The notes beneath the pieces were generated by a model that searched no databases, was not told the DNA's origin, and was given only the letters and a program-made list of their open reading frames with translations. Both the position numbers and the translations under genes were made by a program. Shown in pieces: positions 19,615-23,367 of a stretch of DNA of 64,000 nucleotides; the first letter of the stretch is position 1; every line of letters begins with the position of its first letter. The stretch spans positions 1-64,000 of the forward strand of contig NZ_FUWJ01000005.1 in the NCBI RefSeq assembly GCF_900167455.1. The letters run 5' to 3'. The DNA comes from Enhydrobacter aerosaccus. GTDB lineage: Bacteria; Pseudomonadota; Alphaproteobacteria; Reyranellales; Reyranellaceae.

Positions 19615-20849
19615 CCCGAACCCGCATTTTCGCCGGCTGGTGGGTCGTGGCCGGCGCCTTCCTCTGCATGTCGACTGGATTCGCGATCGTCTATTCGTTC
19701 GCCGCTTTTTTCAGTTCGCTTGAAGCAGAATTCGGGGCACAGCGCGGCGAGACCTCATTGGTCTTCTCGATTTCGGCCTTTCTTTACTTCTTCCTGGGTT
19801 TGCCGGCCGGCTTGATCGGCGATCGAGTTGGACCGAGGCCCGTTGTCATTGGAGGGCTGCTGGTCGTCGCGCTGGGGCTCGTGGCCGCGGCCGGGGCACA
19901 CTCGCTGTGGCAGGTTTATCTCGGCTACGGGCTTGGCGTTGGCGTCGGAGTCGGCTTTTCCTACGTGCCGAGCGTGGCAGCCGTCCAGCGCTGGTTCGTC
20001 CGCCGCCGCGGCACGGCGAGCGGCATCGCCGTGGCCGGCATCGGCGTCGGCACCCTGATCGGCGCGCCACTGGCACACGAATTGATCGCGTTCATCGGCT
20101 GGCGTCAGACTTATCTCGTCCTCGCCGGTATAACGGCCGTCGGCGCCATCGTCTCCGGCCTTCTGGTGCGGCCCGATCCGCATCTCTACGACCTCGCTCC
20201 CGATGGCGATCCGCCGACGGCGGGAATGAGACATAGGCCAGCGGGGGGCATCGTCTTGTCTGATGCCGCCCGCACCGGCCCGTTCTGGGCGGTCTATGCC
20301 AGTGCGCTCCTGATGTCGTTTGGCCTGTTCGTTCCGTTCGTCCATCTCGTGCCTTACGCTCGAGACCTTGGCTTGAGCACGGGGTTCGGTGTCATCCTGA
20401 TCACCTTGCTGGGCGTCGGCAGCACCGTCGGCCGGTTCCTGTTCGCCGCGATCACGCCCTGGCTCGGACGTCGGCTTTCCTTTGCCACGATGCTGTTGGG
20501 CGCGGGATCGATGTCCATCTTCTGGTCGTTCTCCACGAACGCATCAATGCTGGTGATTTTCTCGCTCCTTTTCGGCGCCTTTTATGGCGGGTTCGTCGCC
20601 ATTGCGCCGTCGCTGGCCGCGGACTATTTCGGCGGTCGCTCCTTGGGAGCGATCATCGGCGCCCTCTACAGCGGCGTGGGTATTGGCGCCCTCTTCGGCT
20701 CGCCTGCTGCCGGTTATGCCTATGATTTTTTCGGCTCTTACAAAGGCGCGATCCTGGGCGGCGCCTTTCTCTGCTTCATCGCCTTTGCCATCATGCTGAT
20801 GGCGCCGGAACCGGCGAAGTGGCTGGCCAAACGCGAATCGTCGGCCTGA
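19611..20849 (+). CDS. MFS transporter (monocarboxylate/oxalate-formate-antiporter-like)
   Basis: The 412-residue protein has 12 predicted membrane helices. It begins at a GTG that overlaps the PPK2 stop; the first helix is GWWVVAGAFLCMSTGFAIVY, and the MFS loop 2-3 motif appears as GLIGDRVGPRPVVIGG. WWVVAGAF..... at the N-terminus and GPRP in loop 2-3 are typical of the OFA/MCT-like branch, which moves organic anions. The last 59 bases overlap the 3' end of rlmJ on the opposite strand. Substrate unknown; coupling to PPK2 is unusual. Confidence 0.82.
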   Translation: MTRTRIFAGWWVVAGAFLCMSTGFAIVYSFAAFFSSLEAEFGAQRGETSLVFSISAFLYFFLGLPAGLIGDRVGPRPVVIGGLLVVALGLVAAAGAHSLWQVYLGYGLGVGVGVGFSYVPSVAAVQRWFVRRRGTASGIAVAGIGVGTLIGAPLAHELIAFIGWRQTYLVLAGITAVGAIVSGLLVRPDPHLYDLAPDGDPPTAGMRHRPAGGIVLSDAARTGPFWAVYASALLMSFGLFVPFVHLVPYARDLGLSTGFGVILITLLGVGSTVGRFLFAAITPWLGRRLSFATMLLGAGSMSIFWSFSTNASMLVIFSLLFGAFYGGFVAIAPSLAADYFGGRSLGAIIGALYSGVGIGALFGSPAAGYAYDFFGSYKGAILGGAFLCFIAFAIMLMAPEPAKWLAKRESSA

Positions 20850-21657
20850 CGTCCGGTCCGAGGTGAGAAGCAATCCAGGGCAAAGCCTCCCGCATCGCCT
20901 CTTCGAACTTCCACGGCGGATTGACGACGGCCAGTCCGCATGCCGACAGCTTTCCCGACTCGATCGTAGGCCCGAGGTTCAGTTCGAGCGTAACCAACTT
21001 GAGATCGGTGAGCCCAGCGATGAAGTCCTTCGCGGCGTCATCCTTGATCGGATACCAGATCGCATAACAGCCCGTCGCGAAGCGCCGCAGCCCCTGTCGA
21101 AGCCCGCGAAGCAGGCGCTCGAATTCATCCGGCACTTCGAACGGTGGATCGATCAGAACCAGTCCCCGCCGCTCCGGCGGTGGCAATAGGGCCTTCAAGG
21201 CGTGATAGCCATCGGCCTGGCGAATCTCGACGGCACGATCACCGGCGAACTCGCGCTTCAACGCCAAGCCATCCTGGGGATGGAGTTCACAAGCGACAAG
21301 ACGATCGCCTGGCTGCAAAGCCGCCCGGATCAGCCGCGGCGAACCGGGATAGTGCCGGAGGCGAGGGCCGGACGACCCGAACTTTCGATCATAGGCCGAG
21401 ACCGCAGCCAGATAGCGCGCGACCGCAGCCGGCATTCCGGCCCGGGCTGCCGTCTCGAGGCGAAGGACGCCCAGTTCGGCTTCGCCGGTACGCGTCGCGA
21501 AGCCGTCGCTCAGATCGTAGCCCCCCGCGCCGGCATGCGTGTCGAGCACAAAGAGCTTCTTGCCCTTGGCCGTGAGAAGCCGAACGAGTTCGACCAGCGC
21601 GACGTGCTTCAAGACATCGGCGAAGTTTCCGGCGTGATAGCCGTGGCGATAGTTCAT
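20791..21657 (-). CDS. rlmJ: 23S rRNA (adenine2030-N6)-methyltransferase
   Basis: RlmJ methylates N6 of A2030 (E. coli numbering) in 23S rRNA. The 288-residue protein begins with the family signature MNYRHGYHAGNFADVLKH; the SAM region has LFVLDTHAGAGGYDL (35-49) and the catalytic motif is DPPF (170-173). The length matches E. coli RlmJ (about 280). Its ATG overlaps the stop of the upstream gene (ATGA), and its last 59 bases overlap the end of the MFS gene on the other strand. Confidence 0.95.
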   Translation of the reverse strand: MNYRHGYHAGNFADVLKHVALVELVRLLTAKGKKLFVLDTHAGAGGYDLSDGFATRTGEAELGVLRLETAARAGMPAAVARYLAAVSAYDRKFGSSGPRLRHYPGSPRLIRAALQPGDRLVACELHPQDGLALKREFAGDRAVEIRQADGYHALKALLPPPERRGLVLIDPPFEVPDEFERLLRGLRQGLRRFATGCYAIWYPIKDDAAKDFIAGLTDLKLVTLELNLGPTIESGKLSACGLAVVNPPWKFEEAMREALPWIASHLGPDVRPTIRVWPATSPVPAPSA

Positions 21658-22328
21658 CGGGCCGCCATGGCGACAGTGTTGCAGGCGCCGAAGGGCCTGT
21701 CCTTGAGAAGACCGGCCGCCACCAGGGCAGCGCGATCGGGCGGGCAGAACTCCGCAGCCTTGTCATCGAGCTCCTGCAAGGTCCGTGGGAATTTCATGAT
21801 GCAGCCATCCGTCCTCAACCCTGCCAATACGGCGATCGATTTCAGCATCAGCTTGTAGAGCCGATCGCCGGTAACATCGGAAACCCGTTTGCGCGACAAA
21901 CCGGCATCACGCGGCATCAAGCGGATGATCGACACGACACCGACGCCCGTTCCGTCCAGGAAGGTATTGGAGAAGACGTAATTCAAGCCGGTCGCCTTCA
22001 GGTCGTAGGGCAAGATCAGATATCGAAAGGCATTGCCACGATCCGCCGCCGTGGCCTGGTCGAAGGCGGGACCGACGGTCTCTACTCGGAGCTGGCTGGG
22101 AGTGGCGAGATCTGCCTGTGTGAAACGCATGTCGATCTCCGCCGCACGCACCTTGGGAACGAGTACGCGGCCGAGTTCGCAGACGAGTCCTTCGACGAAG
22201 TCCGCGTTCGTTACGGCCGAATGGACGTAGATCACGATTTCGTCAGGCGCGACCAACGTTTGGGCGAAGCCGCATCGCGCGGAAAGAATGATGCCGGCGG
22301 CCAGCAGAAAGGCGAACGAACGACGCAT
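21654..22328 (-). CDS. Secreted, archaemetzincin-like protein lacking the zinc site
   Basis: The 224-residue protein has a Sec signal peptide (about 1-23, ending GFAQ). Its C-terminal part, RLYKLMLKSIAVLAGL (156-171) then CIM (176-178) and LQELDDKAAEFC (184-195), lines up with the archaemetzincin catalytic region, in which HExxHxxGL is followed by CxM and, about 16-17 residues later, CPxC. Here the HExxH positions read KSIAV and the final CPxC reads CPPD, so the zinc ligands are gone. It is therefore either a non-catalytic relative or a chance resemblance. It is translationally coupled to rlmJ. No function is claimed. Confidence 0.65.
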   Translation of the reverse strand: MRRSFAFLLAAGIILSARCGFAQTLVAPDEIVIYVHSAVTNADFVEGLVCELGRVLVPKVRAAEIDMRFTQADLATPSQLRVETVGPAFDQATAADRGNAFRYLILPYDLKATGLNYVFSNTFLDGTGVGVVSIIRLMPRDAGLSRKRVSDVTGDRLYKLMLKSIAVLAGLRTDGCIMKFPRTLQELDDKAAEFCPPDRAALVAAGLLKDRPFGACNTVAMAAR

Positions 22329-22428: not shown

Positions 22429-23367
22429 ATGGCCACGCACGAGCTTCATTCCTCGCCCGAGACCTGCCACTGGGGCTATTTCGACAGCCAGCTCAAGCCG
22501 TCGCTCAGCCTCAAGTCCGGCGATATCGCCACCATTCATTGCGTTTCCGGTGCCGCGGAGATCCTGCCGCAACCGCCGATGAACGTGCTGCCGGAACATC
22601 GCGAGATCCTAGGCAAGCTGAAGCCGCATCTGGGGCGCCATATCCTGACGGGCCCGGTTCACGTCGAAGGTGCCGAGCGCGGCGATGTCCTGGCCGTCGA
22701 GGTACTCGACATTAAATTCCGCACCAATTGGGGCTGGAACGTGCAGCGGCCGTTGATGGGGACACTGCCCGAAGATTTCCAGTTCTACCGTCTCACGCAC
22801 ATTCCGATCGATTCGAACCGCGGCGTCTGCACCATGCCCTGGGGCACCGAGATCGAGCTCAAGCCCTTCTTTGGCATCATGGGCGTCGCCCCGCCGCCGG
22901 AATGGGGCCAGTGCAGTTCGGTCGAGCCGCGCGCCTTTGGCGGCAACATCGACAACAAGCACTTCAATGTCGGGACGACAGTCTACTTCCCGGTCTTCGC
23001 ACCTGGAGCCCTCTTCTCGACCGGGGATGGTCATGGTGTGCAAGGCGACGGCGAGGTCAATCTCACCGCCCTCGAGACCAGCTTGAGCGGTACCTTCCGC
23101 TTCACCGTCCGCAAGGACATGAAGCTCAATAATCCGCGCGCGGAAACGGCCACGCACTGGATCACGCACGGCTTCGACACCGATCTCGACGACGCCGCCA
23201 AGGAAGCGCTGCGCGACATGATCCGCCTGATCACGGCCAAGACGGGCCTGAAGCCCGAGGACGCCTACATGCTCTGCAGCCTGAAGGGCGACCTGCACAT
23301 CACCCAGACCGTCGACGGCAACAAGGGCGTGCACTGCATGATGGAGAAGGCGCTCATCGGCGGATGA
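22429..23367 (+). CDS. Acetamidase/formamidase family amidohydrolase
   Basis: The 312-residue cytoplasmic protein belongs to the FmdA/AmdA family, which hydrolyses formamide, acetamide or similar short amides to ammonia and the acid. Seen: WGYFDSQLKPSLSLKSGD at the N-terminus, HILTGPVHVEGAERGDVLAVE, the region IPIDSNRG, the conserved GVAPPPEWGQCSSVEPRAFGGNIDNK and FSTGDGHGVQGDGEV with metal-binding Asp/His/Glu. A GAAGGGGGA ribosome-binding site precedes the ATG at 22429. The absence of a linked urea/amide ABC transporter leaves the substrate open. Confidence 0.9.
   Translation: MATHELHSSPETCHWGYFDSQLKPSLSLKSGDIATIHCVSGAAEILPQPPMNVLPEHREILGKLKPHLGRHILTGPVHVEGAERGDVLAVEVLDIKFRTNWGWNVQRPLMGTLPEDFQFYRLTHIPIDSNRGVCTMPWGTEIELKPFFGIMGVAPPPEWGQCSSVEPRAFGGNIDNKHFNVGTTVYFPVFAPGALFSTGDGHGVQGDGEVNLTALETSLSGTFRFTVRKDMKLNNPRAETATHWITHGFDTDLDDAAKEALRDMIRLITAKTGLKPEDAYMLCSLKGDLHITQTVDGNKGVHCMMEKALIGG

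Follow-up and report, generated by a model that had tools for sequence, protein, structure and literature searches.

The window, a stretch of 64,000 nucleotides from Enhydrobacter aerosaccus, carries on its reverse strand a gene for a protein of 224 amino acids, which lies between rlmJ and a divergently oriented gene of the acetamidase/formamidase family:

21654-22328, reverse strand: pseudo-archaemetzincin gene, 224 aa, ATG start (open reading frame; NCBIfam NF033823, E 5.5e-10; eight aligned members)
20791-21657, reverse strand: rlmJ, rRNA methyltransferase gene, downstream and overlapping (Pfam PF04378, E 3.6e-73)
21654-21657, reverse strand: four-base ATGA overlap between the pseudo-archaemetzincin stop codon and the rlmJ start codon, at 8 of 8 loci
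22429-23367, forward strand: divergent upstream gene of the acetamidase/formamidase family (Pfam PF03069, E 9.6e-33), at all 34 loci examined

The family analysed here comprises eight members, the window's own included. The initial annotation described the gene as coupled to rlmJ, in agreement with the retention of the ATGA overlap at all eight loci; the most likely reason for this arrangement is a common message and a common level of translation, and the arrangement is not by itself a sign of a shared pathway. No internal stop codon was found in any of the eight copies.

The motifs on which the initial annotation based an archaemetzincin relationship are present in the open reading frame: RLYKLMLKSIAVLAGL at residues 156-171, CIM at residues 176-178 and LQELDDKAAEFCPP at residues 184-197. 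The NCBIfam archaemetzincin model NF033823 matched residues 96-196 with an E value of 5.5e-10 and 39.4 bits (curated cut-off, 145 bits), and the Pfam M54 model (PF07998) matched residues 155-196 with an E value of 0.002 and 18.6 bits (gathering score, 24.4 bits); both scores are thus below the thresholds of the models. All eight members, the window protein included, matched NF033823 (best E 1.5e-12) and, at E up to 1, Pfam M54 (best E 3.8e-5). When a profile of the eight members was compared with the PDB sequences, four archaemetzincin-family chains were obtained (E 8.4e-11, 9.5e-11, 4e-8 and 6.7e-6), and the sole further match at E up to 10 had an E value of 1.8; the window protein alone recovered the same four chains (E 2.9e-5 to 0.0036). 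The HMM-HMM comparison that had been proposed as a check was performed with hhalign against an alignment of canonical archaemetzincins (three solved archaemetzincin stretches and one Bacteroidota archaemetzincin) and gave a probability of 96.6 and an E value of 5.7e-10. Together, these comparisons upheld the proposed relationship: judging from the alignments, the window protein is related to archaemetzincins by descent, with sequence homology over the metzincin domain.

The family aligns with the M54 archaemetzincins (PDB 3zvs, 4axq, 2x7m and 3lmc; NF033823, PF07998) from the DL..GLNFVFG region through the active-site helix and the CxM motif to ELDxK..C. It differs from them in falling below the curated cut-offs, in lacking HExxH, the third His and two of the four finger cysteines, and in having an export-type N-terminus and two further invariant cysteines. 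The corresponding features of the window gene are the following:

22263-22328, reverse strand: predicted Sec-type signal peptide, approximately residues 1-22 (MRRSFAFLLAAGIILSARCGFA), with probable cleavage before Q23 (hydrophobicity script)
22179-22181, reverse strand: codon of invariant C50, outside the archaemetzincin motif, 8 of 8 members
21969-22007, reverse strand: residues 108-120 (YDLKATGLNYVFS), aligned with the archaemetzincin DL..GLNFVFG region (HMMER, hhalign)
21816-21863, reverse strand: former active-site helix, residues 156-171, with HExxHxxG changed to K163-S164-x-x-V167-x-x-G170
21735-21803, reverse strand: residues 176-198, with the CxM Met-turn, ELDxK, C195 and D198; of the four zinc-finger cysteines, two are retained and the last is an invariant Asp
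21681-21683, reverse strand: codon of invariant C216, outside the archaemetzincin motif, 8 of 8 members

In the former active-site helix, R156 to L171 aligned with the canonical sequence RVVKEAVHEIGHVLGL. In place of HExxHxxG, the window protein has KSxxVxxG and the member that diverges most has RYxxQxxG. The first His is replaced by K in seven members and by R in one, the catalytic Glu by S in seven and by Y in one, and the second His by V, F, L, I or Q, while T, S or A is found three positions past the motif Gly; G170 and L171 are invariant. None of the His or Glu residues of the HExxHxxGxxH motif is present in any of the eight members. Between GL and CxM, the loop falls short of that in the compared solved archaemetzincins by two or three residues (member L008 has one residue more than the other members), and in all eight it lacks both the third His and the first finger Cys. 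Among the zinc-finger cysteines of the HC..CxM..CxxC pattern, the second and third (C176 and C195) are invariant and the other two are gone in 8/8 members, the last being D198 in all of them; the Met-turn Met is present in seven. The replacement of H, E, H and the last Cys, originally noticed in a single sequence, therefore holds for the entire family. As read from the alignment, the entire catalytic zinc site, together with the catalytic Glu, is lost, and the protein would be expected to lack cleavage activity.

The N-terminus of each of the eight members contains a hydrophobic stretch, with a top 11-residue Kyte-Doolittle mean of 2.03 to 2.92 by the hydrophobicity script. A small-x-small pattern followed by Q was found after this stretch in seven members by the script's pattern, which missed the LGAQ of the remaining one (L007). 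Beyond the N-terminus, the highest 19-residue hydropathy mean was 0.99 to 1.45. None of the 23 positions of the signal part is invariant. Each mature part contains four cysteines and no others; they are C50, C176, C195 and C216 in the numbering of the window protein and are invariant in the eight members. The signal-type N-terminal pattern and the conserved, even set of cysteines support the secretion claimed in the initial annotation, and the protein is probably exported. It would then be carried by Sec to the periplasm and contain two disulfides: C176 and C195 may form one that replaces the zinc finger, and C50 may pair with C216. In AfAmzA the counterparts of C176 and C195 are ligands of one and the same zinc, and several other metzincins are reported to have two disulfides where AfAmzA has the zinc finger (PMC3427221).

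The gene was found in seven of the 61 genomes of the genus sample, the same seven being recovered by protein search among 101 relatives. The eighth member (L001) belongs to a metagenome-assembled genome titled 'Rhodospirillales bacterium'; this locus and a later match in genome G845 were counted once, because they have an exact 100-base stretch in common. Carriers amount to 8/75 genomes of the taxonomic family and 8/76 of the order, all in one genus. Identity of the other members to the window protein ranges from 39 to 63 per cent, and 48 of the 201 mature positions are invariant across the eight. Among the 28 pairs of members, the three that were unsaturated (dS below 0.4) had dN/dS values of 0.29, 0.26 and 0.23; the remaining 25 pairs, with dS of 0.95 or more, gave less reliable values of 0.11 to 0.55. 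The low ratios in the closest pairs indicate that the gene is not decaying and, on the evidence of these substitution rates, it is held by purifying selection.

The genes rlmJ and that of the formamidase family were compared at 34 loci (30 of 59 rlmJ places, plus L001, L003, L005 and L008). They lie side by side with the pseudo-archaemetzincin gene between them in eight cases and without it in 26, the distance between their aligned starts being 671-763 bases with the gene and 2-315 bases without it. The 315-base gap (L039, genome G010), viewed by eye, showed no obvious gene relic. Carriers fell into three groups in a tree of the neighbour genes, a rough tree since the rlmJ of G054 is split over contigs and other loci have partial genes. 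The conflict between this tree and that of the eight gene copies was marginal (AU p 0.047) and too weak to claim transfer; the distribution is compatible both with one old insertion and several later losses and with the segment having been exchanged within the genus.

A search for relatives that still have HExxH had also been suggested, and none was found in this family in the genus, family and order searches, in which eight of the 76 order genomes carry the gene. In 337 genomes of the class, profile A1 gave three matches, of which one was the window gene and the other two, weak fragments interrupted by stops (E about 0.007), were taken as chance. In 337 genomes of the class NF033823 had matches in four, the window's own included; the other three matches (L019-L021) covered 29-40 model positions around an HExxHxxG motif. 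In 398 genomes of the phylum it had matches in 12, again including the window's own, none over the cut-off. An open frame with HExxHxxG is present in twelve loci from these searches (L019-L024, L026-L030 and L032) and absent from L025 and L031. The twelve resemble other metzincins or zinc proteases, and no intermediates between them and the family were found. When named genome contigs were scanned with the window protein by means of six short patterns, a method that detects close relatives only, one relative, L001, was recovered. No match was obtained on plasmids and no relative on viral contigs; a plasmid search with a canonical archaemetzincin stretch gave one Bacteroidota match.

Several other proteins were also encountered. 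Seven of the HExxHxxGxxH proteins (L022-L024, L026-L028 and L032) have a common MYAxPYN stretch; their NF033823 match is confined to the zinc helix, and they are perhaps matrixin-like. L031 (genome G498) is a 347-aa frame with, by eye, a lipoprotein-like N-terminus (LTSCTTS) and HELGH...GCVM...C near its C-terminus, possibly an exported archaemetzincin-like protein retaining HExxH. The Bacteroidota match, at positions 628-1632 of L063 on a 602-kb plasmid of Bernardetia, is an archaemetzincin with intact HEIGH and an N-terminus that by eye is also lipoprotein-like (FVACTPK), and it adjoins a glucosaminidase-domain gene.

L025 and L064-L068 (genomes G559, G760, G822, G768 and G761) represent a second family of archaemetzincin-like proteins that lack the catalytic Glu. 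L064-L068 were found in 5 of 81 genomes of another Pseudomonadota family, and their motif is RSLGHLNGL in three, RSLGHLSGL in L067 and HMLGHLLGLDH in L068. They resemble the window family in the missing catalytic Glu and in matching NF033823 (5/5, best E 2.1e-7), and are unlike it in having, by eye, a long hydrophobic C-terminal part. By hhalign their probability was 73.0 to the window family and 22.9, a weaker link, to canonical archaemetzincins; Pfam M54 matched one of the five at 0.26 and Pfam Matrixin one at 0.0065.

AlphaFold models of the window protein and of L001 were of low confidence (mean pLDDT 53.9 and 43.1). Foldseek and VIA-align searches with the first, low-confidence model showed no archaemetzincin among the 50 matches that each listed; since the model was poor, this outcome is uninformative either way. 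The better model, itself of low confidence, contains helices and strands compatible with the N-terminal domain of AfAmzA as described in PMC3427221.

The initial annotation presented a pseudo-protease of the archaemetzincin family as a novelty, and to this extent it has to be corrected: CarG of Myxococcus xanthus and the proteins of NCBIfam NF033824 are precedents. According to PMC8156234 and PMC3427221, CarG is a non-proteolytic archaemetzincin that coordinates two zinc atoms through HQxxHxxExxHC...; its catalytic E is replaced by Q, and it acts, bound to CarD, as a transcription factor (PMC8156234). CarG is also translationally coupled to its neighbour carD (PMC8156234), a likeness to the window gene with its rlmJ overlap; the window family differs in having no zinc ligands and in overlapping rlmJ, not carD. 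In human AMZ1, part of whose zinc site is reported to be lost, only the third His is replaced (PMC3427221), whereas in the window family all ligands are. Neither archaemetzincin nor M54 appears in the main text of a review of inactive metallopeptidases (PMC11266112), and no exported or zinc-free archaemetzincin was found described in the literature searched, which covered few subscription papers. We read the exported, zinc-ligand-free form as what appears to be new; its function is considered below.

The NF033824 model (Myxo_non_zincin, 'non-proteolytic archaemetzincin-like protein') matched one of the eight members, with an E value of 0.0067, and did not match the window protein at E up to 10. 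From its name, NF033824 presumably includes CarG.

A chance match of motifs, with no archaemetzincin kinship, could account for scores far below the NF033823 cut-off and below the M54 gathering score, and for the lack of archaemetzincins in the fold matches listed with the poor model. It is a very improbable explanation, considering E values of 1.4e-9 to 3.9e-12 across seven genomes, a match that in one member covers model positions 12-165 of 170, and the fact that archaemetzincins alone head the PDB search, beside the hhalign result. Equally slight is the chance that the gene is the decaying relic of a protease, retained merely for the rlmJ start at its end. Its patchy presence in the order would suit a relic; the dN/dS values of the closest pairs, the invariant cysteines and motifs, the uninterrupted frames and the 26 loci at which rlmJ does without it largely refute this reading.

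Conservation was compared across segments of the protein. The region of residues 108-120 would contain the edge strand, which has a substrate-binding role (PMC3427221); D109, L110, Y117, V118 and F119 are invariant here, as are S133, R136 and L137 further on. The mean majority frequency was 0.76 for the edge-strand segment, 0.84 for the former active-site helix and 0.90 for helix alphaA (residues 42-55), the most conserved segment tested, with 7 of 14 positions invariant. The edge-strand segment is therefore no more conserved than the former helix, and the cleft is not singled out by the pattern of conservation. H36, D43, D66, D198, C176 and C195 are invariant in the eight members.

We give about an even chance to an exported pseudopeptidase of archaemetzincin descent, which would use the old cleft to bind, and not cleave, a peptide or partner protein and might act as a scaffold, sensor or inhibitor; binding along the old cleft appears the most likely mode, since the edge-strand region is kept. 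The conservation pattern counts against this reading, as does the lack of the gene in most of the genus (26 of the 34 loci). The most serious competitor is a CarG-like partner or regulator that acts through a surface outside the cleft, the cleft itself being irrelevant. The conservation peak in helix alphaA, higher than in the cleft segments tested, makes this a proposal to be reckoned with, and CarG is a precedent for a non-proteolytic archaemetzincin serving as a protein partner (PMC8156234). CarG is described there as a zinc-binding protein with a role in transcription that is invariably accompanied by CarD, whereas no partner gene is evident here, the rlmJ and formamidase-family pair also occurring at the 26 loci without the gene; overall, we consider this proposal rather unlikely. 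A new enzyme, with an active site made of H36 and D43, of the K163-S164 pair or of a metal site at C176, C195 and D198, would explain why all these residues but K163 and S164 are, like D66, invariant in 8/8 members. Disulfides and structure explain the invariant Cys and Asp equally well, and the Pfam and NCBIfam searches, taken to an E value of 10, found outside the archaemetzincin models only one of a short-chain dehydrogenase, at E 0.08. A Ser-Lys dyad at K163-S164 was rejected, as these residues are R and Y in the most divergent member. A new enzyme is accordingly an improbable candidate.

The pseudopeptidase reading can be put in a more specific form, which we propose tentatively and hold slightly less probable than the general one: a periplasmic, metal-free, disulfide-stabilised binding protein in which the zinc finger has given way to a disulfide and the cleft to a groove that binds a peptide or a partner. 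It would be the first exported, zinc-free member of the family.

The function of archaemetzincins is largely open: PMC3427221 reports no activity of AfAmzA on the many substrates tried, and PMC4681839 reports activity of AMZ-tk. The window family retains the domain's sequence frame under selection while having dropped its metal sites, and so separates the role of the fold from that of the zinc. The window protein is small, predicted to be soluble and directly testable. If the proposed reading is true, the family would stand with CarG and, by a weaker link, L064-L068 as one of three separate conversions of an archaemetzincin into a non-enzyme.
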